This document shows, in pieces, positions 5,615 through 61,185 of a stretch of DNA of 64,000 nt (position 1 is the first letter of the stretch; each line of letters starts with the position of its first letter). A program made the position numbers and the translations under genes. This DNA comes from Malachius bipustulatus (taxonomy: Eukaryota > Arthropoda > Insecta > Coleoptera > Melyridae), in the NCBI GenBank assembly GCA_910589415.1, contig OU342639.1, positions 9,494,268-9,558,267 on the forward strand, given 5' to 3'. The notes beneath the pieces are model-generated. The model was not told the DNA's origin and did no database searches. It saw nothing but the letters and a program-made list of their open reading frames with translations.

Positions 5615-5628
5615 AGATATACTAGGTA
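5615..5628. repeat. Target-site duplication, right copy (LINE 3433-5614)
   Basis: Exact 14-bp match to 3419-3432. The few A residues just before it belong to the element-target junction. Confidence 0.88.
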
Positions 5629-6032
5629 CCGAGCTGATAGATCCCTAATATGTGTTGCTTGGGACCAGAGAAAACTTTTATGGACCGGAGCCTAAAACTT
5701 GGTCTGACCAAAGGGTAAAAATGCTACAAAGGAATGAACCCAAAATGGTCTGGAGAATTATGGGTAGACAATACCAAGCTGCAGACATGTTTGGGCTTAA
5801 ATTTGAAACGGCCTAAATTTTCCGAGACGGCTGTTTGCTGTTTTATTAAAATGGCATAAAAGTACAAATTATGAAAATCATTTCAAACTTTTAGATAGTG
5901 ATGTTTATGCAATTTCAAATACGTATATGAATATCATGGGTTGCATAAAAACTGTACCTGTGTAATAATTTCATAAAACAGTGGCGTAAAACTAATTCTT
6001 ACAAGAGGTACTAATAATATTTTCTTTTGCAG

Positions 6033-23561: not shown

Positions 23562-26500
23562 TTTTCAGTTTTCTCGTCATTTCTCTAATGAGTATTTCTC
23601 ATTCCCATCAAGATGGAGCTCAGTATGCAGTAAGAGATTCAATTAATCATTTCGCTGTAGATCTATTAAAGGTAATTAATATATTATAAGCAACTACAAT
23701 AATTATTTAGTTAGCTATTCGCGTCACTTTGTAATATATGTCTTCGGAGCTTTTTTGAAGGTAAGTTTCCCTAAAGATGTTTTTTCTATTTAAAGCAAAA
23801 ACAACTTTTTACATTGAGTAGGGGCTAATATATTCCCACTTTGGGTATAACTTCTGTTACTCTGCTCCAATTCAACCCCCCCCCCCCCCCTTTTCAAAGT
23901 TTAAATTACCTACTTTGCATGTAATTTTTTTGGGAGAATACAGAGGCTGTCCTACCAATCTTTTGTACCCTCGACCGCCATCTTTGTTACCTTCGCAATC
24001 GAGACAGGATCGATGCAAATTAGGAGACATATCTGCTGCTCTACATTAATAAGGTGTCTTCACCCACCATAGCGCTCCAGTGGAGAAATTTATTCTACGA
24101 ATAGTCCCAGTCCTGTCATAATAAGATGGAGAAGAACGAGCTCTCTTGACTGGCGTCTGCATGGTGTCACCTCCAAAAACGTTTGCTCTGTGGGATTCAT
24201 ATAGAGGGTGGACAGCGCGTCAGATATAACGAAGCAAGGTGTTATTGCGCCCGCTCCAAGGAATAGAGACATATGGATGGGCGATCATATACAACAACTC
24301 GAGTTGCTGATCAGCAGCTTCCACCTTTTTACAACGCGAGAAAAAAATCTTTAGCGCTCTAGAGGCTCTATAGGAGGGTGAAAAAAAAACAATATCAAGG
24401 GACTTTGAGTCAATACCTTAATTGGGGCATGTGCCTAAACGTGACTAAACAGTATACTTTGTCTATTCTCTTCTTCTGAGTCGGTTGGGAGCGGGACAAG
24501 CCGCGGTGGGATGAGGGGCTAGTCTCTCGGCAACTTTACGCCAATGAGGCCACATATCTCTCTCTCACTCATAGAGAAGCCACCAGCGTCCTGCAAGGGG
24601 GTAGTAATCCAGGCCTTGTATGGATGTAAAAGGGAAGATGAGCTTTTCCGAGCATCGACTCGCGTGAGAAGCGCAAACATAATCTCCATACATTAGAATC
24701 GACCACATTTGCTCCTTGGTCGTTAGGAGTCCCTATATAGGAGTGGAAGATAGAGGGGGAGGGGGGTGTACATACAGGACTGGTATAGAATAAGGAGTGC
24801 CCCATTTGATGGAGAGGAGAGAGTACATATTGACCCCACTCCTCATATACAGTGTGACCCATTTGTTCTTGAAACACCCTGTAGAATCTTAATTTATGGT
24901 GCGATTTTAAAGAAATTTCTTTTAAATCATAGAGCTTGATAAACTATATTTTGGGAGCAAAAAGCGTCTCATTCCTACAAAATCCAAGGCCTACTAGATC
25001 AGTGTTTACTTGTAAAATCTCAAAAATTCATATTAGCGATTTTTTTAGAAAAAAACTGTGCACGCTGCTAGATTCACCAGCCCTCAAAACGGTACTGTAC
25101 TATATTTTATTAGAAATGTCAGAGTAATAGGGATCTTGCGGTTATATTAGAAATTCAAGAGCTTACCTCCCGCCGAACTTATCACAAATGTCAAAAAAAA
25201 ATCAAAGTCTTTAAGTGATTCTAATTAAGATGGTTCTTTTACATCTTGATCTTTATTCAAATAGTCTATTGATATTGATATTGATATTGAGGGTGTCAGA
25301 TGCGCTGCGACCTATTACAGATCTATTGTACCCCCTTTTCTCTGCTTCTTTGGAGTATATTCCCTTCATTGAAGCAGCCTCTCCAACTCCGCTTCCCTTA
25401 GGAATTTCAGGATTTGAAGGGGATCAAAGCCGGGCAAAGCCCCCCCGTTGAGCTGGTGTTGGCCCAGAACATCGTTTCTTCCACGTTCTAGTGCTTCGCA
25501 GTTCATCAATAGGTGACGAGGCGTCTCGTTTTCTTCCCTGCAGAGTCTGCAAACGCCATCTTTTTCTATACCAAGTTTCCTCAGGTGTTCATTGAGCTTG
25601 CAATGAGCTGTTAGGAATCCTGTTAGCATTCTGAGACTTCCTTTGTTGAGGGTCAGGAGTTTCCTTGACCTTTCTCGGTTAAAGTTCCCAAGGAGCTCCT
25701 TGGATTGTCTCAATCCTGAGAGGTTATTCCAATGGATTTCTCTCAGTTTTTCTTCTTCCTTCCGAAGTTCTGCCTTGAAGAACGTGTCTTCAAGGCTACA
25801 GAATGGTTCTGGTCCTATAAAGGGTGTCGATGCTCCTTTTCTTGCCAATGAGTGGGCACGTTCGTTTCCCTCAATCCCAGTGTGTCCTGGTATCAATTTG
25901 AGGTGAATTTTGTTCTCTCTGCCTAGTTTATTGAGTTTTTGTAGGCAGTTCCATGACATTTTTGAGCTGATGATAGGAGAGCTCAGCGTCTTTATGGCTG
26001 CTTGACTGTCTGTCAGTATTGCTATTTCCCTATTTTTATAGTTTCTGTCGAGGTTTACTTGGGCGCATACTTCTATTGCGTACAGTTCGGCTTGAAGTAT
26101 GCTTGGGGATGTTCCCATCGGCTCGGTTGGTGCCTGGCCCATATACTCCTGCCCCAGTTCCCTCGGTGGCCTTTGAGCCGTCTGTGTACCATCTTATTGT
26201 ACCTTCTTTGAAAGTGTGAATGGATGTGTTGCTCCATTCTTCTTTCGTAGACAGTTCCATGATGAAGTTTCTCTTGAAGCTGAATTTCTTGACAGTTTTG
26301 TCTTTTGGCATTATCAGGAGGTTTTTACAGATGTTCAGGGGTTGATTCCCCTCGGTCCGTAGTCCCCCCCTGATCCCCATTCTTGACATTCTGAGTTGAG
26401 CCTCTGCGGCACTTCTCTCAATCACTAAGTGCAGTGGTGTGAGATCTAGAATTACTTCCAACGTTGCTGTTGGGCATGTTCTCATTGCTCCTGTGATGCA

Positions 26501-29500
26501 GAGGCATGCAAGTCTCTGGATCTTTTCGAGTGTTTTCCTCGCTGTTATTAGCTTGGTCCTCTTGTACCAGACGACCGCTCCGTATGTAATGATGAGTCTC
26601 ACTAGCATGGTGTACATCCAGCGTAAAATGGATGGGTTGCAACCCCATGCATTCCCCGCCATTCTCCTGCACACCATGAGTACGGATGTGGCCTTACTTA
26701 CTGTTTCACTCAAGTGCTTGTTCCACATTAGCTTCTTATCCAGTGTTATTCCCAGATATTTTACTTCTTCCTTCCATTCTAACTCGACTCCATTTAAGTC
26801 GATGGTTTTGAGGTTTGGAAGCTTGTTTTTTCTTGTGAATGGTATCAGTGTAGTTTTTATAGGATTGATGTTGAGTCCTATTTCCTGGCACCATTTCAAG
26901 GTTATCTTTAACCCCCTCTGTACTATGTCGCAGAGTGTTCCTTCAAATTTTCCTCTGGCCATGATGACGATGTAGGCAATGCCGTTCTCGGTGAGTAGCC
27001 CGAGGAGCTCGTCTACTACCAGGCTGCATAGGAGGGGGGATAACACCCCTCCTTGTGGGCATCCTTTTGTTGTTTTCACCTGGATGGTGTCATCGCCCAC
27101 TTTGGTTCCAATTATTCTTGTGGACAGCATTTGTTGAATCCAATGGGATGTTGTGCTGTTTATGCGTTTTTTAGTTAGGGCTTTATTCTTGATAGCATCG
27201 CAAGAGGTGTTGTCGAATGCTTCTCCTATGTCCAGAAAGGCGCAAATGGCCGTTTTCTTGTACTCCAGAGTGTCCTGAATCTTTTCTGTCAGGTCATACA
27301 GGGCGGTCTCTGTCGATCTGCCCGCTCTGTATGCATGCTGGCTTGGGTGTAGTGGTCCCCTGTTCAGTGTTTCCATTCTGATGTGATTATCAATGATTTT
27401 CTCCATCGTCTTTAGTAAGAAGGAGGTAAGACAGATGGGTCTAAATGACTTCGGGAGAGAGGTGTCCTTTCTTCCTGCCTTAGGAATAAAGATGACTTGC
27501 GCCTTCCTCCAGGCTTGTGGTATATATCCCATAGCCAGGCTGCTTCTGAATATTCTTACCAGGTGTGGCATGAGATCCTCCAGTCCTCTTTGCAGAAGAG
27601 CCGGGAATATGCCATCCACCCCGGGTGATTTGAATGGTTGAAAGGTGCCAATTGCCCATTTCAGTCTTTCGGAGGTGCAGATGGTTTTCGCGATCTCCCA
27701 ATCTTCTTTCGTGGGTTTACAAGATTCGAACGAATCCTCGTTCCCTACTTTCAGTGCACTGCCTGGAAAGTGAGTTTCTAGCAGAAGTAGAGCTCTTTGC
27801 TCTTCATTTTCTGTGTAGTTCCCATCAGGTTTTCTGAGCGACATTGTTCCTTGTGCAATGCCTTTCGCTAAAGCTTTATGAAGTCTGGATGCTTCAGGTG
27901 TTGAGGTGATATCCCTGCAGAAGTCCCTGAAGCTCTTCCTTTTAGCTTTCCTGATTTCCTTATTGCAGGTTGTCAGTTCCGCCGTGTAGCCCTGCCAGTC
28001 TCCATCGCGCTTGGCTTTATTGAAAAGCCTTCGAACTTCTGCCCGGAGCTTGGATAGGTGTTCGTTCCACCACGGAGTTTTCCTACAAATTCTTTTCTCT
28101 CTAATGGGGCAGCTGGATTCGTATGAATATTTCAGCGCTCCGTTGAGAGATTCTAATGTTGCTTCTAATTCTAGATGGTTTTTGACTCTAGAATTGGTTT
28201 GTCTTATATTTTCTCTTAGGCTGGTGTGAAATGTGTCCCAGTCGGTGTTTCTTGGATTTCTAATGAGGGTGTTCTCTTGCCAGAGTCCCCTCATGTTGAA
28301 TTCTATTATTCTGTGATCAGAGAGTGAGGGTTCGTTAGATACCCTCCAGTCTCTGATCAGTTGACATATGCTCGGACTACCGATCGTTATGTCTATTACG
28401 TCTTGACTCCTTTTAGTTACAAAAGTGGGTGTGTTCCCCACATTCAGCACATCTAAATTGGATTCAAGTAAAAATTCAAGCAGTTGCTCACCTCTTTTGT
28501 TGGTATACTTGCTGCCCCAGCTGATGTTGTGTGCGTTGGCATCACTGCCGAGTAGGAGCGGTAGCCCATGCCCGTTGCAGTACTCGACTAGTTTCTGGAC
28601 TTCCTTAGGAGGTGCTGATGTTTTCTCATGGAAGTACCCCGATGCTACTATGATGCTACGGTGTGTGCCTCCGGTGATGTTGACCCGGATTGGCACAAGG
28701 TCCCGTGTCATGAATTCTGAAAGACATACATATTTAATGTTGTTTCTTATCAGGATGCAGGCCCTTGGGGTATCACTTCTGATATCCCAAATTGTCTTGC
28801 AATCCTTTCGTGGTAGGCCCCTTACCTGCCCCTTGTATGTCCAAGGTTCTTGTATAAGCACAACACCCAGGCATGACCTGTCGAACGCCCGAGCTATGAC
28901 GGCTGATACCCCCCTAGCATGATGGGCGTTGAACTGGGCCATGCTGGTGACATTTGCTGTGCTTATACTGGTCATTGTTCTTCTTGCGTGCGTTGGGGTG
29001 CTTGCCCCCTGTATGAGCATAGACTGTCCATAGGTTCCCGATGAATCCTCGGTGACATTACCTTGATCGGTTGATCTTACCATGGTTGATCCCACGAGTA
29101 GCAAGGGAAGGGTGTTCCACCTATGCAGAGCCCCGCATGCAAAGGTGAGAGGATTGATACAGTGGGGTGCCCCCTTGGTGCCCCAAGGTTGAATCCAGTA
29201 GGGGCTGGTCATCTATCCAGTCACGCATCCCATCAGCCTGGACCCCCGCCTTAGGATTTAGGTTTTTTTTTTGTGAGGTTGTCTCCTCTTGGTTCAGGCG
29301 ATTAAGCCCAGACCCCCGCATTTCTCTGTCCGCGAGACGTGTCCACGACAACAGATGATACGGTATATCAGATAGTCCACAGTCGGACATCTCTGGCGCC
29401 GTTATCCCTAGTGCAGACCTTTAGTCACGACACGACAACTAGGTTAGGGGAGGTGGTCCGCGGCAGGGCTTTAAGCTGCCAGTCTAGAATTTTACCTCCG

Positions 29501-33259: not shown

Positions 33260-33342
33260 TAATATGTACTAAAATGCCTCATAATGTATAGGTTCTCTCG
33301 ACTTGTTTCAAATCTGTTATGTACAGTTATTTTGAAATAAAT

Positions 33343-33373
33343 GCATTATCTATCTATCTATCTATCTATCTAT
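33343..33373 (+). repeat. (TATC)n microsatellite, LINE 3' tail
   Basis: Seven or so TATC units immediately before the right-hand CAAAG. They are the terminal repeat of the nested LINE. Confidence 0.8.
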
Positions 33374-34936
33374 CAAAGCTTCTGGGCCCGATGACGTACC
33401 TGTTATCGTACTAAAAAAATGCGCCACTGAGCTGTCAGCTGTTTTCTGCCGACTTTTCAACTTGTCGTATAAAAAGGGAATATTTCCTTCTTGCTGGAAA
33501 TGTGCACGGATCCAACCTATTCCCAAGAAAGGCAAAAAGACTATACCAAGTAACTATCGACCAGTGGCACTGCTTTCAGTAATATCCAAGATTATGGAGA
33601 AAGCTATTAACCAACATCTTTTAAAATACTTGGAAGGAGCTAATATAATCAGCGACCGCCAATACGGATTCCGCAAACAGAGGTCAACTGGTGACCTCCT
33701 CACGTACGTCACCGAGCTGTGGAACGGCGCAATCGAGCACCATGGGGAGTCTCGAGGGGTTGCGCTTGATATTTCTAGAGCTTTCGACCGTGTTTGGCAT
33801 GATGGACTGTTGGCAAAACTGCAGGCCTATGGCATGCCCGAGAAATTCTGCTTGTGGCTTGCGAGTTATCTCGGAGATAGTTCATTACAGGTGGCAGTCG
33901 ATGGAGTTCTTTCTGAGACCTTTTCCATCAATGCCGGTGTGCCTCAGGGATCCATTTTATCTCCGACTCTCTTTCTAATATTTATAAACGACTTGCTTGA
34001 AACAACAAAAAATCCAATATACAGTTTTGCCGACGACAGTACCCTCATATCTTCTTATACGTTAGATGCGCGAACATCTGCCATCGACGCACAGACTCGC
34101 AGGGAGCAAGAAGTTGCCATACTTAACAATGACTTGTGAGACATTCTAACTTGGGGCGATAGAAACCAAGTCCAATTTAATGCTGGAAAAACCCAAGCAG
34201 CCATCTTCTCCAAAAAGACCAATGTTTTGGAGCCAGATATGATGATGGCGGGACACTCTCTTACCCCAGCGTCATCTCTTCGTTTACTTGGAGTGAGCCT
34301 CGGAACGAACATGTCTTGGCATGATCATGTTACAGGTCTGGCGAAGAGTGCTTCTCAAAAACTTGGAACACTCTTCCGCTCGAAGAAATTTTATACACCA
34401 CAACAGCTTCTCCTCTTATACAAGGCTCAAATCCGATCATCCTTGGAGTACTGCTCACATATTTGGAGCTCAGCTCCTAAACATACGCTGAGACTACTCG
34501 ACTCTATTCAGAAAAGAGCCATCCGCTTGATTGGGGACCCAGATTTGACAAAAAATTTAGACACTCTCGAACATCGAAGAAGAGTAGCTGACCTGAGTCT
34601 GTTTTACAGATATTTTAATGGAAGGTGTTCAAAAGACGTGGCCCGCTTGATCCCACCAAGAACAAGACCGGGCAGATATACACGTCGAGCCGCAGACGCT
34701 CATCCGTATCAGGTTCAATTCGTTACACCTCGTACCACCCTATTTCAGACTTCTTTTATGTACAGAGCCGCATCACTTTGGAATAGCATTCCAAAGGGCG
34801 TGTTTCCCGAAGTATACAACTTACAGAGATTCAAGGCCAACGTGAATCGATATCTCCGCTCATGCACCGCTCCCAGAGCGTCATAGGGATTTCCCTGCAG
34901 TGCATGTGCATTTTCCATTAAAAAAAAAAAAAAAAG

Positions 34937-38370: not shown

Positions 38371-41300
38371 TTAACTAGTCAATAAAGCCACATTTATTTC
38401 TTTAACCATTTTGACTCGATGAAGCATTTTTTCCAAGGATTCACGTGGTAGAGGCATAGTTGAATACCATACAGGACTGTCTGGCACACAAGACCTTTCT
38501 GGTTGTAAATAGAAGACATCATTCCTTGTTTTCACACTTTCAGGACTGAAAATGGATAATAAATTATTTAATATAAACATTATAAAGACGATGTAGGGTA
38601 AAAATTATCAAACAATCAGATAGGTACTAAAACTAACTGCAACAATAAATGAGCACACAAGCGTAACTAAAATCACGCATTAGATATTTAGCGCTGTGGA
38701 GTGTTGGTCACTGTTTGTTATGTCTACAGCTTACAACTAGCAATAATTTTAGATGACAATACTACGAGTTGATGGTGTACTACACCATTGAATAAAATAT
38801 TCCATAGTAAAGAAGTTTTTTTGCAACCTCTGCTGTGTTCATGCCCTCCTGATAAGTCTGCAATATTTTGAGAGTGAAATTCAAATTGTAAATTTACTAT
38901 AATTTCTGTACTTACAGTGTATTTTGCAAATTACAGTGAGCAATAAATTAATTAGGGATGCAACGAATATTCGGCAACTATTCGGCGAACGTAATATTCG
39001 GCCATTTTGCCGAATATTCTATTCGGCTGAATATTTCTATTTGTCGCCGAATATCTCCGCCGAATATGTCTCAAGTTTTTATGAATAGAAATACCGAGAG
39101 AAATACCTACATATTTTTCAAGACATTTTAGGAAACTCCTAAATAATAATGGCTTGGATCTATTGTTATTGATCACAGTTAATCCCTTAACAATAGACTA
39201 GGTACCTATCTACCTGAATATTTTTAGGATTCTTTTTCAAGCATTGACCGAATATTTTACACTTTAATTACAGCATCTCCTATGTACCTATAATTTAGCG
39301 GGGGTTTGGTATCTTGAAAAATACTAATTTATACCTACACAATAATATTCCTATATTATCATCAATTGGGTATTAATTTTAGGGATTCTTCAGAGAAATT
39401 ATGAAATAAAAATCAGAGATAGAAGGCAGACTTCATGATTGTATAAAAATTTAAAAGAATTCCTGTTTTCAAGTGGGTCCTTTCAATTTGTAAACAAACC
39501 ACTTACTCAATGGTTAGGAGAAAGGCTAGTATATCGTAAAAGAAAAGGACAAAGTTCATATCTACCCATTTCACCAAAAGAGACAAACAACAATAATGGA
39601 AATATGGGATGACTTCATGAATCGGATTCCAGTGTTGACCTTAATGGGCTATAAATCAACAATAAATCAAACTTCTCCTTTTGAATTTTAGAAATTTCTT
39701 ATTCATTCTTGAAATCTAAAAAATTTAATAACATTGTTCCTCTTGTGTTTTATTATAGGGGGGAAATTAATGAACTTATAGAAATTGCTTACACTTTACC
39801 TACTTGCTTGAAATTTCAATGATAGGAACAGTAACAAAAAGATAAAGTACCCAGGTACCTACTTCTAAGAATAATTGATTATTTACTGAAAATTGAATAT
39901 TCCTCTGATACCCTGTTATTGTTTTGCCTAAACTCAGAGCTTCAATATGAAAATGAAACAGTCAATAAAGTCAATAAAAATCACCCAACAATAGGGCTGA
40001 AAGGGTTCCTTTCCGAGAATTTATTGTTTTATTAGGTACCTATACTGAAGTTTCAGAATAGTAGGCACTAAGTTCTCGGAAGTGGTCGTGACGTATAAGC
40101 GCTCAGTTGGAGCATTCAGTGGCGGACGCAAAATATCAAAATAGGTTCAGACAATAATGAATTTATTGAGAAATATAATTGTAAACTTCCAAATAATATA
40201 GCATATAGTAAATAATATAGCATATAGCAAAAATAAAAATAGCAAAGAAAATAGGAAAAAAATAGTACCTTAGTCATCGTCAGAAGAAAAATCGTCGGAT
40301 GATGGACAACTATCCCGATCACCGTTATCGTTCAAGTTGATAATTAATGGCTCAACCGAAACATCAACTATTGTGTCTAGATCCCACATTCTGTCTTCTT
40401 CTTTTGTAGTATGTCGGATGCAGTTTCTCCATGTTTCAGCCGTCACATCTCCTATTGCAGTAGCTAGCAGGCGTTTCACTTCATCCATCTTGAAGGTCAC
40501 GTTTTGTTTCGCCACTTGGTTTTTTATTTGAGCCCAAATAAGTTCTATAGGATTCAGTTCACAGTGGTAAGGAGGGAGGCGGTGTACAATGATGTTGCAC
40601 TCGCGAGCCAATTCGTCGACAGCATATCTCTTAAAATGAGGTATTTGTGCCCTTGCGATGTTTAATAGTTGCACTTTTAACATGTTGTCATCAAATGGTA
40701 TATTTCTTTGAGCCAGCCAGTTAATGATGTCACCTTTTCGCCATGCAGTTGTTGGCGATGGCTCCAATCGTCGACTATGGTAGGAAGCATTGTCCATTAC
40801 CACGACCGAATTTGGCTCAAGGCTTGGTAAAATTTTTAAAAACCAGCTTTCGAATTTTTCCGCATCCATTTCCTCATGGTAGTCACTAGTTTTCTTCGAT
40901 TCGAAAAGTAGCAATCCGTTTTCCAAAAAACCCGAATCACTACCTATGTGAGTTATTATGAGCCTCCGCCCCTTGCCCGCTGGCGCTTTTAGTCCTGTGG
41001 AAAAACCTTCAAAAAAAGCTTGTCGACGGCTTGTTATTTCCAAATCTTGCCAAATTTTCGAAACAGTATGACCTTGATTCAGCCAAGTTTCGTCTAAGAA
41101 ATATATTTTCTTCCCTTCACGACGATACTCTCGAATTTTTTGTAAATAATTTCTCCGCCACAAAATTATTTCTTCTCTTTCTATAAGAAGACTTTTTCTC
41201 TGCCTTTTCATATGCCTTATGTTCATTTGTCTTAATGTCCGCAATAAGACACGTCGCGATATTTTCGGCATTGCGTCATCCGAATTGATTTCGGCAGCGA

Positions 41301-44034
41301 TTGCTTTTAATGTTGGAATTTCATTTCGGAAAAAGAACGAATGAAATTTTCTCCGAACGGCGTATTTTATGTCATCATCAATGTCAATGCGTTTTCTCCC
41401 CCTTGTTTCAATATTTTCAGCTACCTTTTCTGTTCCGCCTTTGGACTCTTTGAAAGTTTTCAAGATTCGGTGTACACTCCTAGTTGACACTTTGGTTAAA
41501 TCACTACACAAAGCAACTACATCGTTTACCAACATACTTTGATTCCTTTCACGGAGTCCACAATACACGTTGTATATAATAGTTTTTTCTCCTGTAGATA
41601 AATTCGTACGACGACGTTTACTTTGGCTGCTCTCGCCTTCCATATTGCTCACAACTTTAAATTTAAACAGTATTTCACTTCGGCACTCAAAGAAGCTTGC
41701 TTCTTTCCCGTTTACACCACAGTGAGAACTGAGAAATAAGATTCAGACAGGAAATCTGATGAGCGACCCTTAAAGCAACCAAGCTATCCCCACTAATTAT
41801 GCACTTTATTGTCGACCGGGTATGGGTTTTTCCGGGATGGTGATTCCGTAAATTTCTTATAGTTAAACTTTTTCTGTATCCTGGAACTCAGTTCATTCCC
41901 AAAACAGGAATCATTATTGTATTATTATTTTACCAAATAATTAACTAATAACTAATTATTAACAAATTAGTAAGATATTGATTTTTTCTAGCTTGTATTT
42001 CTTAATTACTTCACAGATTGTCTATGAACAATATGAAATATTCAAAATTTTGTTGTTCCCGAGAGTCGAGAATCTTCTTCCCCCGGTAATATTAATTTTT
42101 CTTTTCTGACAACCAGAAAACAGAAAGAGAAAAATATACAAGTCCCGATCGACATCCAATAACAGCCCAAAACAAACAACTTTTCTTTTTGTTCAGGTTA
42201 TTCCACTGCCGCGAATTCTTTTTCATTCATTTTCATGCGTTTTTTAATTTTTGTGATGCTTCAATAATTCAGCAAATATAAACATAAAAATAAAATATTA
42301 AGGATTTAAAGGAGCGATAAATGTTATATTGCAGCCCCTCACGAAAATAGCATGAACGATACGCCACTGAATACGGAGCTGCCTTGGACGGACTGGCAGC
42401 ATGCTCGATATATATCCATCTTACTTTACCTTACTGCAAGTTGGACCTGCTTATCCTTTGTACTTGTTGACACTGCTGTAATGTTGCCATATATTATATT
42501 TTAAGGGACCGAACCTCATTGAAATTCTACATCTTTTGCTATTAAATATCGATGTTGTGAAATTATTATAGCAGAAAAATTACTCAACAAATAAAACACA
42601 GTATTTTTTATCCTACAACCATTTACCTGCATGTGAATGATAAAAATACAAAATGATAAAACACCAAGAATTAAAAGCTGGCAACAATGTGTTTACTTTA
42701 AGTCCGTAATATTTCTAAGAACTTAGTGCCTACTATTCTGAAACTTCAGTATAAAATCCAACCTATAAGCACATGAATGACTGAAACATGCATGTAAAAA
42801 ACTGGTTATGGACAAGTTGGACAACCCTCAAATAAAATAAAGAAAAAGAAGCCTCTTAGAGCTGGCACTGTGGACTCACCAGGAATTGAAAATTTCACAA
42901 AACCATAATATTCGGCCGGCCGAATATTCGGATTCGGCCGAATACTAATGGCCGAATATTCGTATTCGGTATTCGGCAAAAATCGGTATTCGTTGCATCC
43001 CTAAAATTAATTAATCAATTATCTATTCAAATCACTTATCTCTCAAACAAAGAACAATTTTCTATAAATTTGTCATGGCAGCGGTCTTTACTTGACAGTA
43101 ACATTCAATATAGTAAAAATAAAAACTGTGACCAATATTACATACCATTTAGATAAATAAAATTCATATAATTTTACTGGACAACGCAGGGGATTTTCTT
43201 CATTCTCTTGTTGTTCGTATACCTTCTTCTTTCTTGTATTATTTTCTGGAAAAAAAAATAAAACAATTAAAAAAAATCAAATTCATCATTAATGCAACAA
43301 CTTACGTAAAGCGCTTTGCGGTGGGTAAAACCTTAATAAAACATTTCGAGATCCTGGTGCTTTCGATGCGCCAGGTTGATTCGGATTTCTTTTCCAGTGT
43401 TTCATAATATGTGAAAAGGATAACTGCATGTGCTCGTCAACAGTCTTGAAAATAAGCATGAAGTTAGAGAAATTTTTAGTAAAAAATAAAATTATAAGGG
43501 TCTTACAGTGAGATTGAAATGTTTAGTATTGAAAAACATCAAAGTGCTTAATAGAACATGAGGTGAATGAGCCCCAAGTTGTTTACTTTCCCATAGGTGT
43601 TCCTCTTCAACCCTTGTCACTATATAATGTGAATCGTTATACAGCACAGAAAATTTTCTGGCAACTTCATCTAAACAATCAGTAAATTTCTCGTAATAGG
43701 GATCACAAAATATGTTATCTATGCGGCCATTTTCAAACAAGTACTGCTGAATACCTGTAAAAATTAAATATTTAATCAGTTTGCACTTTTTCACAATTTG
43801 ATTTCAGGTAGAGTTTTACTAACCCAAGCATAAATAGTATATTGTATCGGGGGCATATTCAGCACCATTTGGTTTTCGAACTTCTTTCACAAATAGGCAC
43901 AACGAATAATTCAACTCATCGGCAGTGAGTTGTAATATTTCAGTTTTGAATAATTTCAGACGTCTGGATGATTTTTCCAATTCAGAATTCTTGGTAGTCA
44001 CCCACTGTTTCCAAGCATTCACACCGAAAGTATA
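38371..44034 (-). CDS. woc: woc-type gene exons 11-15: C-terminal DUF3504-type domain
   Basis: Exons 44034-43824, 43754-43507, 43444-43306, 43245-43146 and 38545-38371. Diagnostic blocks are FGVNAWKQWV, DTIYYLCLGIQQYL (across a junction), HIMKHWKRN, NPLRCPVKLYEFYLSK and, completing it in the last exon, CPESVKTRNDVFYLQPER. The domain is shared by ZMYM2/3/4 and QRICH1 and is thought to derive from a tyrosine-recombinase-like ancestor. The final intron is 4.6 kb because of the nested hAT/Tc1-type insertion. Confidence 0.92.
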
Positions 44035-47000: not shown

Positions 47001-50000
47001 TTATTCTGCTCCTACCCTGTCCTGTAACTCAACCCATAACCTTTTATTAATTATTGTGCAATATACTATTGTATCTCTTGCTCTGGTGGCCTGGTAAAGT
47101 TTTATAGATTCATAGAAATTAAATTGTACCCGCTTAAGTTTGAGTTACAATCTTTAGTGCCCCCCCCCCCTTTTATTTTTTGTATTATTCAAGATAAATA
47201 AATGAAAGTCAGCATAAGTAAATCTATTGTTGTATAAATATTAAATACCATCTTTTCACATGAACATAATAATTGTTGTCAAAATCTAAGAAAGGACTGT
47301 ATAATATAAAGATATAAAATTTATGACTCACCTGTTTGTACTTCTTTATTAACCATGCTACTTTTCGTGGTATTGGTACCCTTGCACACAGTTCTGACTC
47401 TGGTCAATGTGGCAACATTCCTTTGTTCAGGAATAGGGTAAGGTTTAACAATTATCTGTTGCTTGATTTGTTGAATACTTTTAGCTGTATCCATCGCTTT
47501 ATTAACCACTGAAATGTTCTTCGTAACGGCTAAATTGTTGGATTTAGATCTTGTGCTTCTTGTACTCATGGTGGATACAGAATTCCCATTAGTATTAGCC
47601 AGGTTCTGTATGTTGCTCATTATTGGAACAGCACTAAGTTCTATAACATTAACAGAACAATCGTACTAGTACTAGTTGACAAACATATAAAATAATCATA
47701 AAAATTATACCTTCGTCCGATCTATCAGAGTGTGGCAGTTTCTTGCTTTTTCTAGGAGCACCGGCTGGAACCACTGGAATCTTGGCTGGAGTATCATTAG
47801 TCATGGTGATTGGCGTTTTAGGGAATTGTGATTGAAAAGCGAGGCAACAAGAATAGGAGCAGAAGTTCCGGATTGTTGCATCAGACATAGTTAGGTGATA
47901 CATCGGTTGTGATTGTTTCATGCAAAAATCACAGCAGACCCTGAAGCATACCATATCAATAACTGTTCCATAATAATCTTACATTAGTTCTTACTTTTTT
48001 GATGTTAAGGCATTAACAGAAACTTGATACAAGCTCAAGCAGTTGACACTGCACATATTCAGTACTTCCTCAGGTTGGGAATATCTTCTTATCATGTCAA
48101 AATTATACTTCTTTACTTTACACCAGCTACAGGGTACAATTTTACGATGTGCGACTATGTATATGTTTTGGCAACTGTTAGAACAAAAACTATACTGCAC
48201 GTTGTCGTAAAACATCGTAAACTTTTCCAATTGATACCGAGTGAAATTCCGTTTACACATTGCACATTTACCAGCTGTTATCTTATTAACAAAGCTGAAG
48301 GCGACAAAGCAGGGCTCCCCGCAGAAGTAGTTCGACTGGTCCTTGTAAAAGAAATCAATGGCGATTGATTTGCCTTCTTTTGCACAAACACAACATTTAG
48401 TAGAAGCACTAACTTTCGGTGGGCGGTCGTTTGTCATAATATCATATTTTTCCATGCATACTTGTGAACAAAAGTCCTTGAATTGACCTTTGTCTCCTAC
48501 AGGAGCCAGAAATCCTTCCGGTCCACCAGACATGTCTTGTTGACAATATGAACAAACTTTTAAGCCCTTTTTGTACTCCTCTAAACAATGACTTGTACAA
48601 AATTGACGAATATCATTGCCAAATCTGACACAGTATTTCCCTAATGAACTTGGCCTGACATCTGTAGAACAACTGGAACACTTTGATCCTATTTCACGCT
48701 GATATTTTGCTGCAATTATCGAATCAATTTAGTTTAGATTTTTTTGAAAATTTTAAAAACTTCACTTACACAAACAAAACTCATTACAAAAGTCCATGAT
48801 CTCCCAAGTTAGGTTCAATTCCGGATTATCAGTTTTTTTATGACATGTGGCGCACTTCCTGACAAAAGTCATTTTTTGTTGATCTTTACAGCTAGCCAAA
48901 TCTTTGACCCTGATTTCACCTTCACCACTCATTACTATTTCATTTGGATGCAAGTTTTTCAAGCTTTTCAGGCACTCATCACTGCAGATGTATTTAGTGA
49001 TTCCATCTTTCAAATACGTATATTTGGCAGTGCGTTTCTGTAATAATTAATTATTACACAATTTTTTTGAAGCAACCAGCATACAGATTAAATTATAGAT
49101 GAAATAGGCATAAAAACCAAAATTTCTCGTACAATTTGTATAAAAAAAGTATGAAACTGAGATTAAAATTTTGTGATCAAAAATAATACATTTAAATTTT
49201 TTTATATGTCTGTATCCCCTGTTACATCACAATTTTGATGATTCAAATAAACACTTACCAAAAGACAGATTTCGCAAGTATGAAGGTCATTATCGCCTTC
49301 ATTTCTATTAACAAAAAATTTTTCAGTTGATGTAGAGCTATCAGCTCTCAAATCTTTTGAAGTGTCTTCTGTGACACTAGTTTCTGTTAGATCTCTCAGT
49401 TTTGGTAAAGCGGAAGCAGCTTCCTTTTCAGCCTGCAGAATTCATAAATAACACCATGCTAAGTATTTAATGAAAATTTTTAAGAATTCTTACCTGTGAA
49501 ATCACTCGTTCAGTATCAGGAATTATACAAAGCTCTTCATCGGCTCCTTGTTCACTAGCATTATCAGTCTCTGTTAAATTATCTGAATCATTCACAACCA
49601 TGTCCTGATCCCCGATTGGGTCTTGCTCAACCCTAGGCTCACCAGATTCTTTTTCTTTATCAACGTCCATACTACTAGACCCATCTTTATCAACAGATGA
49701 GCAATCTTGGCCTATGTCCATGTTTACATGAATAAATTCACCGCTATCTTTGTGGCTAGTCGATTGTGATGCTTCATCGACCTCCATTAATGAATCTTTC
49801 ATAGATTCTGAATCAATTACCTCATCGCTGATCTCTCGATTGTTGTCACAGCTATCACGTGAATCATTATTTATTTCCTTGTTACTAGGAATTGCTTCTA
49901 AATCAGTGATTTTGTCATCTGTCTCTGTATATTCCTCACTCGGTTTATTCTGCAAAGTTTCCTTATCTTTATCTGTATTTAAATTACTAGATTCATTATC

Positions 50001-52045
50001 TAAGCTTGCTTCAGAAATCGTAGCTACTTCACCTTCGATAATCTCTTCAGGTGCGATTTCTCTTGCAGATTCATTTTCAGGGTTTACATTTTCAAATGAA
50101 TTCAGTTCACTTCCAGAAATTGTTGATAGCGATGTGTCAACTTCTTTTGCAGATTCATTTTCAAATGAATTCAGTTCACTTCCAGAAATTGTTGATAGCG
50201 ATGTGTCAACTTCTTTTGCAGAATCACTTTCAGATGGGTCAAAGTCTGCATACTCGTACAGTTCACGTACACGTTCTCTGTGTCTCTCTTGTGCTTCTCT
50301 GTGTCTCTCTTGTGCTTCTCTTAGTCTCTCTTGTGCTTCTCTATGTCTCTCTCGTGCTTCTCTTTGTCTCTCTTCAGGTAGTATGTCGTTCATATAATTC
50401 ATTCTATCAGAATCGGTACTACTTATTAGAGTAACGGTGCTTGGGGTAAGGGACACTCCCAGGCCCAAATCATCACTTTCAATACTTCTGTCAGTGTCAT
50501 TCTCATTATCAGTGTCGTCTTCAGCAGCTACAGGAACCTCATTTTCCACGTTTTCCGAATCAGATGTTTCATGTGATTCATCCAATAAAACAGGATGTCT
50601 TTCTTTAGTTCCTTCTTCATTTTCTATCGAACTTGGCTTTTCTTCTTGTTCGATGGCTTCCTTTGCTTTGTCTGCACTTGAAGCATTGTTTGTTTCATCG
50701 GAAGTTCCTGGCATATCATACTGACTTTGAGATTCATCAACATTTAGCGAACCGGCTGAAATTTCAAATTTGTTTCACTTGCTGGGATTGTTTAATGCCT
50801 ACCTACTATTTTGCTTAGCTCTATTTTATAATCGGTTCTGTGAACCTTGAAAAGCAGTTTAAAAGCAGTACATCTAAAGCAAAGACTAATTTGTAATAGT
50901 TCGAGGTTCATTGCCAATTAAAATTAAATTCACAAAAATCGTTTAAAATTCCATACTGAAGTGATTGTAGAAATTCGCGTCAACGTGGCAACACTGCGCG
51001 GGAATATGTACTCTCGGCTAGGTTCAGGTCCGTAAAAAAAAAATCGCATTGAACATAGATAAGTGTAGAAAATTAATTAATTCTGATCGCAAAGAAAGGT
51101 TATGGTAATCCTGTTGTTTAGTCTTCCAAAACACCCCTCACATGCCCATTCCACTTTTTCCACTCGCGTTGCTCACAGCAGTCACAGGGTTGCTGCATTA
51201 AATCAGGTCTTTGGTCAGGGTAGGTTTTTTTTTTAATTTAGGGACATTTAAAGGAAAAAAAAACCTACCCTGACCAAAGACCTGATTTAATGCAGCAACA
51301 CTGTGACTGTTGTGAGAGACGCGAGTGGAAAAAGAGCATGTGAGGGGTGTTTTGGAAGACTAAACAACAGGATAACCAAGGTTATGATTTGGTTTCCTTA
51401 AAGCAAAACAAAAAGCACACCATTGCTATTGGCATTCGTAATATATCTACGGGAGTGTACACATTACAGGTTTTCATGGACTTTAGAAAATGTAAGTATT
51501 GAATGATGGTGATCTTAAAATCTAAAAGTTTCACAGGGAAATTATAAGAAACTGATCAGAACCTGCCAAGTCAGGTCACTGATCATTGGTAAGACTCTCT
51601 CCCCTGAAATTTGAAGAAAATAAAATAGCCTTGGATTTAGTCCCCAGTTAACTCCACGACCTGACTGCCAATAGCAACGGCCTATGAACTAGTCTAAAAC
51701 ACACTCTGATAAGTGGGGGGTATTAACAGTTGTTTTGCCCAAGGTAGCACAAGCACATAATTCAAATTCATTACCATCTATGACGGTATTGTCCAGGTCT
51801 GCTTCTACTGACTCTGTTGTAGTGTCCAGAGAATTTTGTCCGCTGCTCACGATAGGTTGATAACCACTTGTTGAGCAACTACTTTCTGCCTGTGCATCAC
51901 TTTCAAACTCGCACTCTTTTGGGGCTGATTTATCAATACCAGTTTCGCTCTCATTAATAACTTCTGCAGACGAGTCGAGAATGGACTCAATATCTGTGAC
52001 AACTCTCTCCGCCATGGCAGTCGTTCAAGGAATCTGCGTCTTTAG
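38371..52045 (-). CDS. woc: MYM-type zinc-finger chromatin protein (ZMYM2/3/4-woc class), 15 coding exons
   Basis: Coding exons, 5' to 3' on the minus strand: 52015-51775 (exon begins at acceptor 52045; ATG 52015), 50755-49494, 49432-49259, 49037-48770, 48709-47995, 47940-47711, 47640-47332, 44958-44780, 44719-44599, 44535-44144, 44034-43824, 43754-43507, 43444-43306, 43245-43146 and 38545-38371 (stop TAA). Every junction is GT..AG and every phase matches; the CDS is 4,764 nt, 1,587 aa. Order: acidic Ser/Glu-rich N-terminus, MYM zinc fingers, a Pro-Val-rich block, an Arg-Gly basic region and the C-terminal DUF3504-type domain. In Drosophila, woc is a nuclear chromatin protein linked to telomere protection and ecdysteroid production; vertebrate ZMYMs act in corepressor complexes. 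The symbol rests on domain order and family resemblance, not an orthology test. A noncoding first exon is implied by the acceptor at 52045. Confidence 0.92.
38945..38952. repeat. 8-bp target-site duplication, left copy (hAT)
   Basis: AAATTAAT, repeated exactly at 43004-43011. Confidence 0.87.
40041..42753 (-). mobile_element. Complete Tc1/mariner-superfamily transposon (DD82E type)
   Basis: Perfect 34-bp terminal inverted repeats at 40043-40076 and 42718-42751 (outer end TACTGAAGTTTCAG), flanked by TA at 40041-40042 and 42752-42753. The single transposase gene is uninterrupted. About 1.07 kb lies between the ATG and the right repeat and 190 bp between the stop and the left repeat. All features of an autonomous, possibly active element are present. 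Confidence 0.93.
40270..41652 (-). CDS. IS630/Tc1/mariner-superfamily transposase, DD82E
   Basis: 460 aa from the ATG at 41652, no stops or frameshifts. Residues about 18-100 resemble a helix-turn-helix DNA-binding region (STRSVHRILKTF), followed by a basic GRKRI and a second helical domain ending near LRQMNIRHMKRQ. The DDE_3-type catalytic core has FLDETW (Asp 1, about residue 195), VVMDNASYHS (Asp 2, about 287) and ELNPIELIW (Glu, about 370). Counting the sequence gives 82 residues between the second Asp and Glu, much longer than the usual 34-41. The tail is acidic (SSDDFSSDDD). It cuts and pastes its own element through the 34-bp repeats into TA. Confidence 0.92.
   Translation of the reverse strand: MSNMEGESSQSKRRRTNLSTGEKTIIYNVYCGLRERNQSMLVNDVVALCSDLTKVSTRSVHRILKTFKESKGGTEKVAENIETRGRKRIDIDDDIKYAVRRKFHSFFFRNEIPTLKAIAAEINSDDAMPKISRRVLLRTLRQMNIRHMKRQRKSLLIEREEIILWRRNYLQKIREYRREGKKIYFLDETWLNQGHTVSKIWQDLEITSRRQAFFEGFSTGLKAPAGKGRRLIITHIGSDSGFLENGLLLFESKKTSDYHEEMDAEKFESWFLKILPSLEPNSVVVMDNASYHSRRLEPSPTTAWRKGDIINWLAQRNIPFDDNMLKVQLLNIARAQIPHFKRYAVDELARECNIIVHRLPPYHCELNPIELIWAQIKNQVAKQNVTFKMDEVKRLLATAIGDVTAETWRNCIRHTTKEEDRMWDLDTIVDVSVEPLIINLNDNGDRDSCPSSDDFSSDDD
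43004..43011. repeat. 8-bp target-site duplication, right copy (hAT)
   Basis: Exact match to 38945-38952. Confidence 0.87.
44780..44958 (-). CDS. woc: woc-type gene exon 8: Pro-Val block
   Basis: Reads EKREKDKILIPVPVPIYVPA, then a second run rich in PIP and ending in IFIPTT. This alternating Pro-hydrophobic segment sits between the MYM fingers and the C-terminal domain in vertebrate ZMYM proteins too, and it is the strongest single family marker outside the cysteines. Phase 1 entry and phase 0 exit both fit. Confidence 0.9.
45111..46326 (+). mobile_element. Solo LTR, copy 1 (interrupted by a MITE after its second base)
   Basis: The LTR runs TATAAC...CCCGTAACA and is flanked by ATAA (45107-45110 and 46327-46330). 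Without the MITE it is 565 bp. It contains a TATA-like box (ACTATATAAGG, about 46037) and AATAAA (46271) in the order expected of U3-R-U5. It lies in the intron between exons 7 and 8 of the woc-type gene, antisense to it. Confidence 0.87.
45113..45761. mobile_element. Tc1/mariner-type MITE with TIRs of about 66 bp
   Basis: Ends CAGGGTGTATTGTAACGTCC on both strands, with one mismatch in about 66 bp of inverted repeat (CACGTGATT versus CACGCGATT). TA is duplicated at 45111-45112 and 45762-45763. It is inserted exactly at the first TA of solo LTR copy 1. No ORF is present. Confidence 0.87.
46373..46851 (+). mobile_element. Solo LTR, copy 2
   Basis: 479 bp, TATAACGAAC...CCCGTAACA, flanked by ATAT (46369-46372 and 46852-46855). 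It is clearly the same family as copy 1 (shared GCGTCGGGGGACTATA and CAATAAAG segments) but diverged and shorter. It has a TATAAAAGG box (about 46597). It lies only 46 bp from copy 1. Confidence 0.88.
46856..47331. other. woc-type gene intron 7, remainder
   Basis: AT-rich intronic sequence with a poly-C run (47160-47170). No further exon was identified. Confidence 0.6.
47332..49432 (-). CDS. woc: woc-type gene exons 3-7: MYM zinc-finger array
   Basis: Cysteine-pair modules typical of MYM (TRASH-like) fingers follow each other: HTCEICLL, YICSDECLKSL, RKCATCHKK with FCNEFCL, SKCSSC with FCTSHCLEEY, KVCSYCQQD with FCSQVCMEKY, KCCVCAKEG with FCGEPCFVAF, KCAMCKRNF with FCSNSCQNIY, VPCSWCKVK with MCSVNCL, and VCCDFCMKQ with FCSYSCC. 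The repeated [KR]xCxxC...FCxxxC spacing is the family signature. Exon 7 is Ser/Thr/Lys-rich linker ending in EVQT. Confidence 0.92.
49494..50755 (-). CDS. woc: woc-type gene exon 2: acidic disordered region with internal repeats
   Basis: About 420 residues rich in Glu, Asp and Ser, predicted disordered. It contains a run of five REAQERHR-type heptapeptides, then two tandem 23-residue units (SAKEVDTSLSTISG...), encoded by adjacent 69-bp repeats at 50092-50160 and 50161-50229. The splice acceptor lies within TTTCAG at 50756; the exon ends at VISQ before GTAAGA. Confidence 0.9.
51103..51379. repeat. Long hairpin in woc-type gene intron 1
   Basis: The left arm 51103-51234 and right arm 51253-51379 are near-perfect inverted copies (TCCTGTTGTTTAGTCTTCCA... 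to ...TGGTCAGGGTAGG) with an 18-bp loop. The differences are mostly small indels. It has no coding content and no obvious element termini. Confidence 0.85.
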
Positions 52046-58051: not shown

Positions 58052-58063
58052 TGTATTATAATT
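58052..58063. repeat. 12-bp direct repeat, left copy (ribozyme element)
   Basis: TGTATTATAATT, repeated exactly at 59389-59400. Confidence 0.82.
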
Positions 58064-58246
58064 CATAAAAATAATGAATTGTAGGTCAATGAGTATAAGC
58101 ACACAGAGTGCAATTGCTAGCCTGTTAGGTGGGTTCGGAGAAATCCTCCATCGCCCATAACAGTTGTCATGCTGGCAGTGCCCGAAACTCCAACCAGAGA
58201 GTTTGCTTCCGCATCCAACAGCAGAGCCTTCCAGAGTACCAAATCA

Positions 58247-58290
58247 AGCACAGACACGTGTTTCGTTCTACTGGAACTCATCAGTGTGCT
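58247..58290 (-). ncRNA. Hammerhead ribozyme, type I, copy A
   Basis: Minus-strand 44 nt, identical to the copy at 59124-59167. Stem I AGCACA/TGTGCT, core CTGATGA, stem II GTTC-loop-GAAC, GAAA, stem III C(ACGT)G, cleavage after GTC. Confidence 0.93.
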
Positions 58291-58707
58291 GCATTCGGAG
58301 TGTCTGGAGGATGCTGTCGGATGAACGGAAGCCGGGGCCTCTTAAGGCCAGCATTAACACGGAACTCCGTGTGGTGTAAAATAGAGCGACATCTAGCGGT
58401 CAGTTCAAGGAACTAACCGTGAGTTCACTCTAAATTGATTGAAGTTCCAGACACTACCAATAAAGCCGGTCGATGACAACGAATAATGAAGAAAACAGAA
58501 GGCAGGTATACTCAAGGATTAATTCATAAAAATAATGAATTGTAGGTCAATGAGTATAAGCACACAGAGTGCAATTGCTAGCCTGTTAGGTGGGTTCGGA
58601 GAAATCCTCCATCGCCCATAACAGTTGTCATGCTGGCAGTGCCCGAAACTCCAACCAGAGAGTTTGCTTCCGCATCCAACAGCAGAGCCTTCCAGAGTAC
58701 CAAATCA

Positions 58708-58751
58708 AGCACAGACACGTGTTTCGTTCTACTGGAACTCATCAGTGTGCT
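58708..58751 (-). ncRNA. Hammerhead ribozyme, type I, copy B
   Basis: Identical 44 nt on the minus strand, exactly 461 bp from copy A. Its unit is truncated 11 bp beyond the ribozyme's 5' stem by the inversion junction. Confidence 0.93.
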
Positions 58752-59123
58752 GCATTCGGAGTGCATTTCGGGCACTGCCAGCATGACAACTGTTATGGGC
58801 GATGGAGGATTTCTCCGAACCCACCTAACAGGCTAGCAATTGCACTCTGTGTGCTTATACTCATTGACCTACAATTCATTATTTTTATGAATTAATCCTT
58901 GAGTATACCTGCCTTCTGTTTTCTTCATTATTCGTTGTCATCGACCGGCTTTATTGGTAGTGTCTGGAACTTCAATCAATTTAGAGTGAACTCACGGTTA
59001 GTTCCTTGAACTGACCGCTAGATGTCGCTCTATTTTACACCACACGGAGTTCCGTGTTAATGCTGGCCTTAAGAGGCCCCGGCTTCCGTTCATCCGACAG
59101 CATCCTCCAGACACTCCGAATGC

Positions 59124-59167
59124 AGCACACTGATGAGTTCCAGTAGAACGAAACACGTGTCTGTGCT
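59124..59167 (+). ncRNA. Hammerhead ribozyme, type I, copy C
   Basis: AGCACA (59124-59129, stem I), CTGATGA (59130-59136), GTTC-CAGTA-GAAC (stem II, 59137-59149), GAAA (59150-59153), C-ACGT-G (stem III, 59154-59159), TC with cleavage after 59161, then TGTGCT (stem I, 59162-59167). All invariant core bases of the hammerhead are present, with full pairing of stems I and II. Stem III is a single C-G pair with a palindromic loop, as in retroelement hammerheads thought to act better as dimers. Confidence 0.95.
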
Positions 59168-59388
59168 TGATTTGGTACTCTGGAAGGCTCTGCTGTTGGA
59201 TGCGGAAGCAAACTCTCTGGTTGGAGTTTCGGGCACTGCCAGCATGACAACTGTTATGGGCGATGGAGGATTTCTCCGAACCCACCTAACAGGCTAGCAA
59301 TTGCACTCTGTGTGCTTATACTCATTGACCTACAATTCATTATTTTTATGAATTAATCCTTGAGTATACCTGCCTTCTGTTTTCTTCT

Positions 59389-59400
59389 TGTATTATAATT
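59389..59400. repeat. 12-bp direct repeat, right copy (ribozyme element)
   Basis: Exact match to 58052-58063. Confidence 0.82.
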
Positions 59401-59969: not shown

Positions 59970-61185
59970 TTAACTCGTTCACTGCCCATCTCTAAGGTTA
60001 TGCACTTGTGAAGTACCATATAGATTTTAGTATCTTATTGACATCATTTGTTATAGAAATCAACTAATTTAGTGTTTTTTCATTCACATTTGTTATTTTT
60101 TTTTAGAAAAAATAAGATCCACACGTGTGTCGGCATGGGCACTGAACAAGAAAATTGACGATTATTTGATATCGAGTGCCCACTGACGCACCTGTGTCGG
60201 CAAACTAAAAATGTGCACAAATAAAATTTTATTTCCATTTATAAACCTGTTACACAATATTTGACATGATTATTCAACATAAAGTTATTTCTAAACATAT
60301 AAAACAAAAATATAGTATCCATTTTGCAAAACAAAACATAAATAAACTCTAAAATATTTTTTTATGGGTAGTCTATAAAACCGATTTGTTCTCCAGTAAT
60401 CTCTCAATCTTGGTAATTGGACAATTCCAGTGTAAAAATATATCCCTAGGAATGTGGATATTTCCTTCCTATCCACTGATTTCCACCGGGTAATACGGGA
60501 CTGCGGCCTAGGATTATTATCATTCAGCAATACCACTTCTGCGTAAGCATTCGTTTCTACCACTAACATTTCAAAAAAACTGTCATCCGCAAAAAGTTTG
60601 AAAAAATCAATTGGTTGTCCCTCGCCTGGTATATCAACTTTTAGTTCCTGAGTTCCACTAAACAGAATTTCTTGAAGACTTGGTGGATTTTCAAGCCAAT
60701 CTACAGCTGGCTGTATAGGTACCTGGTTAGGATTGACTGCCTCAAATTCCTCAACTGGTTCATCGATATCAGAATCCTCCGCCTCCTCTGCCATATCTTC
60801 AACTCCACTCCACTCACTGCCAGAGTCTACATAAGGTTCGTCTTCGAAGTCGCTATAATGAATTAATGCCAACATTTCATCTTCTGTTAGATTGTTTGGG
60901 TCTTTAATTTTAGGTTTACGGTGTTTTCTAAGACCAGATGGACCTGGAATGGGATTATCTGCCATTTTTGTCGATCTTTTTCACAAAACAAAGGACCACC
61001 TGTAAAAATACTACCACAAAACCTCAAACCACATGCCCGCCTCGTATCTTGTGCTTAACTGCAGTCCCGAGTTAGCAACATCGTTATTTCAACCTAGGGC
61101 TCAGTGCCGACATTCACGCGGCGTGGGCACTGCCGCGAAAACCCGCGTGCCGACACTGTGTCGGCATGGGCAGCGAACGTGTTAA
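59970..61185 (-). mobile_element. piggyBac-type element, internally deleted
   Basis: TTAA occurs at both borders (59970-59973, 61182-61185). The inner ends are CTCGTTCACTGCCCAT and, on the other strand, CACGTTCGCTGCCCAT, matching at 14 of 16 positions. Further GTGTCGGCATGGGC-type repeats lie near both ends (60127-60142, 60189-60205, 61150-61170) as subterminal repeats. TTAA plus the N-terminal transposase fragment identify piggyBac. It is non-autonomous because the catalytic domain is missing. Confidence 0.87.
60291..60965 (-). pseudogene. piggyBac transposase, N-terminal fragment
   Basis: 224 codons from the ATG at 60965 (MADNPIPGPSGLRKH). The acidic N-terminus (EDEMLALIHYSDFEDE, SGSEWSGVED) is followed by the start of the DDE_Tnp_1_7 fold (PSLQEILFSGT, DFFKLFADDSFFEMLVVETN, KEISTFLGIYFYTGIVQLPRLRDYW). 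The frame then leaves homology at FRVYLCFVL and stops. None of the catalytic aspartates, which lie further downstream in the family, is present. Confidence 0.85.

Follow-up and report, generated by a model that had tools for sequence, protein, structure and literature searches.

Within the window, i.e., the whole stretch of 64,000 nucleotides that was analysed, the element under study occupies positions 58064-59388, where an antisense arm (1.5 units of a 461-nt repeat) is placed head-to-head with a sense arm (1.35 units). With unit coordinates counted from u1 = 58059, its features are the following:

58052-58063: left copy of the target-site duplication (TSD), 12 bp, TGTATTATAATT, by direct reading
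58064-58763, minus strand (here the sense strand of the retrozyme): antisense arm, about 1.5 units, an exact match to the 461-nt concatemer; its outer end is site A, at u6, with u4-u6 indistinguishable from the TSD bases TAATT common with the unit
58247-58290, minus strand: predicted type I hammerhead 1 (RF00163, 32.6 bits), predicted cut after 58253
58708-58751, minus strand: predicted type I hammerhead 2 (RF00163, 32.6 bits), predicted cut after 58714, 461 nt from hammerhead 1
58764-58765: junction filler CA, 2 nt, between the two head-to-head arms
58766-59387, plus strand: sense arm, about 1.35 units, an exact match to the 461-nt concatemer; its outer end is site B, at u430
59124-59167, plus strand: predicted type I hammerhead 3 (RF00163, 32.6 bits), predicted cut after 59161
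59316-59370, plus strand: stem-loop common to the retrozyme and to F2, a family of Penelope-like elements (PLEs), TTATACTCATTGACCTACAAT...TTGAGTATACC; site A lies at about 59350, in its 3' part, and minus-strand copies of the stem-loop lie in the left arm
59351-59387, plus strand: the 'tail', i.e., the stretch from site A to site B, at the right end only
59388: an extra T between site B and the right TSD, absent from the unit
59389-59400: right copy of the TSD, 12 bp, a perfect repeat of the left copy

In the direction of the ribozyme strand, each arm has its 3' end next to the flank; as pieces of the concatemer, the arms amount to 705 nt on the left (including 5 bases common with the flank) and 622 nt on the right. 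Two of these features go beyond the original prediction, namely the perfect 12-bp TSD and the origin of both arms as exact pieces of one 461-nt concatemer. The perfect flanking duplication indicates that the element is one insertion and not a satellite array; among 19,078 random pairs of window positions the longest match was 9 bp and none reached 10 bp. Since the 866 redundant bases of the locus present no differences, the insertion is considered young. The outer ends of the arms, site A and site B, are about 36 nt apart in the unit, a spacing that is weak evidence from this locus alone, since about 5% of random end pairs have a distance of 30-40 nt. The GC content of the unit is 46% and, in line with the original statement that no protein is encoded, the coding capacity of the element is limited to a 101-aa stop-to-stop frame spanning the junction. 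A Penelope RT/GIY-YIG frame, for which a search had been proposed, is absent from the element, and a Pfam scan of 19 of the 45 window ORFs returned no GIY-YIG domain.

The three type I hammerhead motifs stand at the places and on the strands first claimed for them, with 100% identity between them and the 461-bp spacing. The Rfam model Hammerhead_1 (RF00163) matches exactly there, with 32.6 bits per motif (E of 8.6e-6 with 1.7 kb searched and of 3.2e-4 over the whole window); this falls 1.4 bits short of the curated cut-off of 34, for which reason a default Rfam scan of the window lists nothing, and the proposed check with this model succeeds for the match to all three motifs and not for the threshold. 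A loose core pattern matched 7 times, 5 of these being at the three motifs, where 2.0 matches were expected; 7 matches were reached in 3 of 100 shuffles, so that the pattern on its own is weak evidence. The cut positions are predictions taken from the motif. As regards folding, the hammerhead is not the preferred predicted structure of a single 44-nt motif (-5.5 vs -8.8 kcal/mol), but when two 44-mers are folded together a double hammerhead is predicted, whose stem III is an uninterrupted palindrome of 8 bp (-26.1 kcal/mol), to be compared with the weak stem III, palindromic loop and action as a dimer given for amphibian retrozymes in PMC7229834. Strong self-pairing is predicted for the 461-nt circle (z of -8.7, and of -6.7 for the antisense; 60 shuffles each). 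Elsewhere, hammerhead patterns were matched in 5 viral contigs, and the pattern search of prokaryote genomes returned none.

The original prediction had hesitated between an insect retrozyme and a Penelope pLTR array. The former is borne out by the motifs, the short non-coding units, the GC content of 46%, the long TSD and the dispersed copies. These are also the traits by which metazoan non-LTR retrozymes are described by Cervera and de la Pena 2020 (PMC7229834), i.e., type I hammerheads, short tandem non-coding units, no LTR, a GC content under 50% and a TSD longer than 4 bp, the 461-nt unit being slightly above the 150-450 bp and 170-400 nt mentioned there. The identity as a Penelope pLTR was rejected on account of the missing RT/GIY-YIG coding frame and of a convincing likeness restricted to a short stem-loop of about 55 nt, common with one of five PLE pLTRs, that of F2. 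The role of Penelope looks to be that of inserting machinery and not that of the element's identity.

Further copies of the unit were sought, as first proposed, with a 707-nt query in the genome from which the window comes (52 contigs, 544 Mb). At least 193 matches were found, which answers the refuting condition first stated, that other copies be absent. The loci mapped comprise 37 fetched clusters among the matches listed plus the window copy, i.e., 38, a sample in which short or old copies are under-represented. Two arms with both outer ends placed were recognised in 35 of the 38. As for the others, L024 has one arm with a B end, a TSD of 10 and an internal other end, while L029 and L047 have one arm each with an A end, a truncated other end and no clear TSD. 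The arms are in head-to-head order in 35/35 two-ended loci; as such, the inverted layout, first thought to be possibly undescribed for this copy, is not special to it and constitutes a rule of the family. All 35 loci have an exact TSD, of 10 bp (1), 11 bp (1), 12 bp (17), 13 bp (9), 14 bp (5) or 15 bp (2), whereas combining the left flank of one locus with the right flank of another gave a 10-bp match once in 582 pairs and none that was longer. Since the TSDs differ between loci, the insertions are independent. Their composition is 82% AT, compared with 63% in the window; read with A on the left, the base following the TSD is G in 25/35 and the base preceding it is C in 13/35. Taken with the gac-TSD-gtc borders of several loci of a 315-nt family described below, this G suggests for the targets of L014-L050 and L063-L078 a roughly two-fold symmetry, as expected of a dimeric endonuclease.

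A further feature of these loci concerns the outer ends. In each of the 35, exactly one end falls at site A (u3-u9) and the other at site B (u428-u435), with no A/A or B/B insertion among them (p = 2.9e-11 under free choice of site). Three other explanations of the inverted arms can be considered. An assembly or sequencing artefact might come to mind at the window locus with its perfect 590-nt inverted arms; with 35 loci on many contigs, each having its own TSD and flanks, and with a fold-back expected to mirror the flanks as well, this is scarcely credible. Self-priming, where the cDNA from a single start folds back and copies itself into the second arm, has been proposed for head-to-head Penelope copies (PMC3846280), and 5 nt close to the arm end at the window junction could pair with the template bases that follow (chance of about 0.03); it nonetheless predicts A/A or B/B ends, found in 0/35, and arms are often very unequal in length (6,667 and 647 nt in L038), which renders it very unlikely. 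Twin priming by a LINE, where the 3' end of the RNA is primed from one strand and an internal site from the other, would similarly give an inverted insert with one TSD and junctions with short overlaps or filler, and LINE reverse transcriptase frames are indeed present in the window. It predicts one fixed and one scattered end, while both are fixed internally in 35/35; moreover, the mapped ends of the 461-nt loci carry no poly(A) or tail repeat, and PLEs with a GIY-YIG domain follow the same two-site rule, so that twin priming too is most improbable. As general rules, all three were rejected in view of the fixed A/B ends and of TSDs and flanks proper to each locus. A SINE-like element mobilised by LINEs was likewise rejected, given the two fixed internal ends and the mapped ends free of tail repeat.

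The inner ends (68, from 34 loci; L046, into which other DNA intrudes, is counted for ends and excluded from the junction count) are scattered over the unit (KS vs uniform, p = 0.10), and 0/68 come as close as 3 nt to the point at which the ribozyme is predicted to cut. At the junctions of these 34 loci, 18 present an overlap of 1-10 nt, 15 a filler of 1-23 nt and one, L015, about 1 kb of another retrozyme. Arms exceed one unit in 60 of 68 cases, the longest, of 6,667 nt, corresponding to about 14 laps. In several loci private variants are common to the units of both arms; in L037, 16 units have 0 differences among them and 4 relative to the window unit, the nearest other locus being 0.65% away, and the same pattern is seen in L044 (3 units) and L049 (4 units). 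Other, mostly older loci have small differences between units. Judging from sequence, private variants in both arms fit a single template RNA, probably circular, that was copied over and over from the two ends.

Alternatively, the template for the same two-strand PLE mechanism may have been linear, a multimer transcribed from a genomic array, the ribozyme remaining idle. It would agree with arms that cross the predicted cut many times without a single inner end at it, with the uncleaved RNA used by a PLE in vitro (PMC11167929) and with the tandem organisation of genomic arrays, from which multimeric transcripts are possible. Up to 14 laps and 16 identical units across both arms are, on the other hand, more easily obtained from a circle, and PMC7229834 reports an abundance of circular retrozyme RNAs for other animals. 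The linear template is a possible but less probable alternative to the circle.

Candidates for the inserting enzyme were found among the PLEs of the genome. In a search for GIY-YIG domains, 150 of 775 candidates were scored, and all the listed ones were above the cut-off; many belong to open frames of 823-855 aa and recur in tandem about every 3.3 kb. About 20 opposite-strand neighbours are in head-to-head order among the matches listed (as read from the list), and at least 2 neighbours in the opposite order are probably different elements since their scores differ. On contig C11 of the genome (G000; 84,009 bases), a long PLE array has GIY-YIG matches at steps of about 3.33 kb, of which 6 are on the minus strand and a longer run comes next on the plus strand, most of them in open frames of 833 aa. 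The pLTR regions of five families and 8 insertions chosen by eye (F1, 3; F2, 3; F3, 2) were considered further. A minimal hammerhead-like core, CTGANGA...CGAAA, is present in 5/5 pLTR regions, and Rfam gave no match on the pLTR pieces at E up to 1. Six of the 8 insertions examined were fully mapped, and all 6 obey the one-A-one-B rule. The ends of F2 lie at 1218-1219 and 1251-1256 in 3/3 insertions, at positions homologous to A and B of the retrozyme and with 13-bp TSDs, while those of F1 (2 mapped; 933-935 and 970-974) and F3 (1 mapped, L081; about 981 and about 1018) lie at sequences of their own. L081 was placed by eye, the automatic alignment having put both ends near 1020. As for the two insertions left unmapped, the left end is hidden by a nested insert at L082/L083, and at L086/L087 one end lies near site A of F3, the other arm is cut short and there is no TSD. 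The mapped F1 and F3 copies sit in (AT)n stretches, and F2 and the retrozyme in AT-rich 12-13-mers. Since the six mapped PLEs follow the same paired-end pattern as the retrozyme, a PLE enzyme likely inserts the latter.

Among these families, F2 stands apart. Its frame carries RVT_1 and GIY-YIG domains, and the named relatives of its protein, among the matches listed, are from insects, with Diabrotica first. Together with the Aromia relative of a MYM-type zinc-finger frame in the window, this makes a beetle, or an animal close to beetles, the likely host. A stem-loop in F2, TTATACCCATTGACCTACAAT...TTGGGTATACC, is the counterpart of that of the retrozyme, with a local score of 40 compared with at most 28 in 60 shuffles and with 18-24 for the other four PLE families. 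One pair of the stem is changed on both sides, from U-A to C-G, i.e., in a compensatory way, and the common piece of about 55 nt directly adjoins site A. F2 is the only one of the five sampled PLE families sharing convincing sequence with the retrozyme. Being the sole family of five with the stem-loop at site A and with homologous start sites, F2 is the presumed partner of the 461-nt retrozyme.

The rule of two sites extends to a second retrozyme, with a unit of 315 nt, discovered as 2.8 tandem copies in the left arm of L015 (L015:4429-5306), where synthesis likely jumped to a different RNA and then returned. Its hammerhead, of type I, scores 53.5 bits in 3/3 copies, i.e., more strongly than that of the 461-nt unit, and the family has 192 matches in the genome. 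Both orientations occur at 16 loci among the matches listed, always in head-to-head order (16/16, as read from the list). Outer ends were fetched for 9 loci chosen by eye; a TSD of 11-12 bp was found in 8/9, while L079/L080 is without TSD and unmapped. In all 8 mapped loci the ends fall in two places, about v314-v2 for one end and about v170-v182 for the other; where the upper values were obtained, variants of the unit blur the placing. A distance of about 142 nt separates the two start sites, compared with about 36 nt in the 461-nt retrozyme, so that the two-site rule holds while the spacing does not. Several borders read gac-TSD-gtc, i.e., a target with two-fold symmetry. No PLE with sites matching this family was found among the five PLE families, with whose pLTRs the 315-nt unit has weak matches only (best E 0.057).

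Among the insertions mapped, two-site pairing is common to PLEs and to two retrozyme families of different sequence. The element of the window is a retrozyme for which, with a high degree of confidence, insertion by a resident PLE enzyme is likely; the two target strands would be opened at points some 12 bp from each other, and one DNA copy would be primed at A and the other at B. Hammerhead cleavage, given the predicted ribozyme, would free 461-nt monomers from multimers, and host ligases would close them into circles. After this opening of the target by the PLE enzyme, most likely that of F2, each target 3' end would be extended on the retrozyme RNA, one from A and the other from B; both cDNAs may then circle this RNA, with lap numbers that vary, and be joined at their stopping points. 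The strict A/B pairing suggests an enzyme dimer holding A and B in two different places, one per target strand. Whether such a dimer works on one circular retrozyme RNA, with protomers at A and B extending opposite strands for a dozen laps or more into a head-to-head double concatemer, is a proposition to which about even chances are given; on this reading, the Penelope 'tail' would be present at one end only because of the obligatory A/B pairing.

Biochemical work on an anole PLE bears on both sides of this model (PMC11167929). The PLE protein, a predicted dimer, cuts both strands and starts reverse transcription at two internal sites bounding the 'tail', in likeness to what is seen here. The start sites were without difference between strands, which counts against strict pairing. 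Furthermore, RNA is used there without being processed, and mutation of the ribozyme does not prevent insertion in vitro, so that ribozyme and circle may not be needed. Homogeneous multimeric transcripts could take the place of the circle. Strict two-site pairing offers in this regard a concrete and testable model of PLE integration, the later steps of which are yet to be validated (PMC11167929).

With respect to known systems, GIY-YIG PLEs resemble the retrozyme by their head-to-head copies, AT-rich targets and TSDs of 8-10 bp and longer, and the optional Penelope tail (31-bp; 30-40-nt) resembles the stretch between A and B (PMC3846280); the retrozyme differs in encoding nothing. Neither PMC11167929 nor the passages considered of PMC3846280 describe for PLEs a compulsory pairing in which each end has its own site. 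In the portion of PMC7229834 considered, metazoan retrozymes are described as tandem repeats, with either LINEs or PLEs as conceivable machinery, and inversion, head-to-head double arrays or fixed paired ends are unmentioned; according to a review, they have no motif revealing the mobilising retrotransposon, PLEs being a likely candidate (PMC7761336, PMC7229834). Plant LTR retrozymes are similarly non-autonomous retroelements with hammerheads and circular RNA but have type III hammerheads, LTR/PBS/PPT, a 4-bp TSD and Gypsy machinery (PMC7229834). In insects, pDo500 of Dolichopoda cave crickets is a tandem repeat with a hammerhead in single and double forms; in the available text of PMC2837043 and PMC2808323 it is called satellite DNA, inverted arms are unmentioned, and it is set beside the retrozyme by description only.

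Retrozymes, PLE tails and PLE inversions are already known. No paper on head-to-head retrozyme insertions, on the strict one-A-one-B rule or on a PLE start-site stem-loop in a retrozyme was found in the open-licence literature searched, and subscription papers may hold parts of them. Insertion ends, targets and the common stem-loop point to PLEs, and to one family of them, as movers of retrozymes, and the many-lap arms would represent a natural case of reverse transcription round a probable RNA circle.

Besides the retrozyme, the window contains LINE-type reverse transcriptase frames at 3541-5691 (minus), 10091-11669 (minus), 19452-20846 (plus), 25366-29212 (minus) and 33336-34886 (plus), some of which have endonuclease or RNase H domains. 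Fragments of DNA transposases lie at 60291-60980 (minus) and 40270-41742 (minus), with domains DDE_Tnp_1_7 and DDE_3. A near-perfect inverted repeat at 51175-51313, with about 60 bp per arm, is matched below cut-offs by several unrelated microRNA models and looks like a palindromic or MITE-like element. Exons for MYM-type zinc fingers at 47321-48728 (minus) likely belong to a host gene, the nearest named relative of which is from Aromia.
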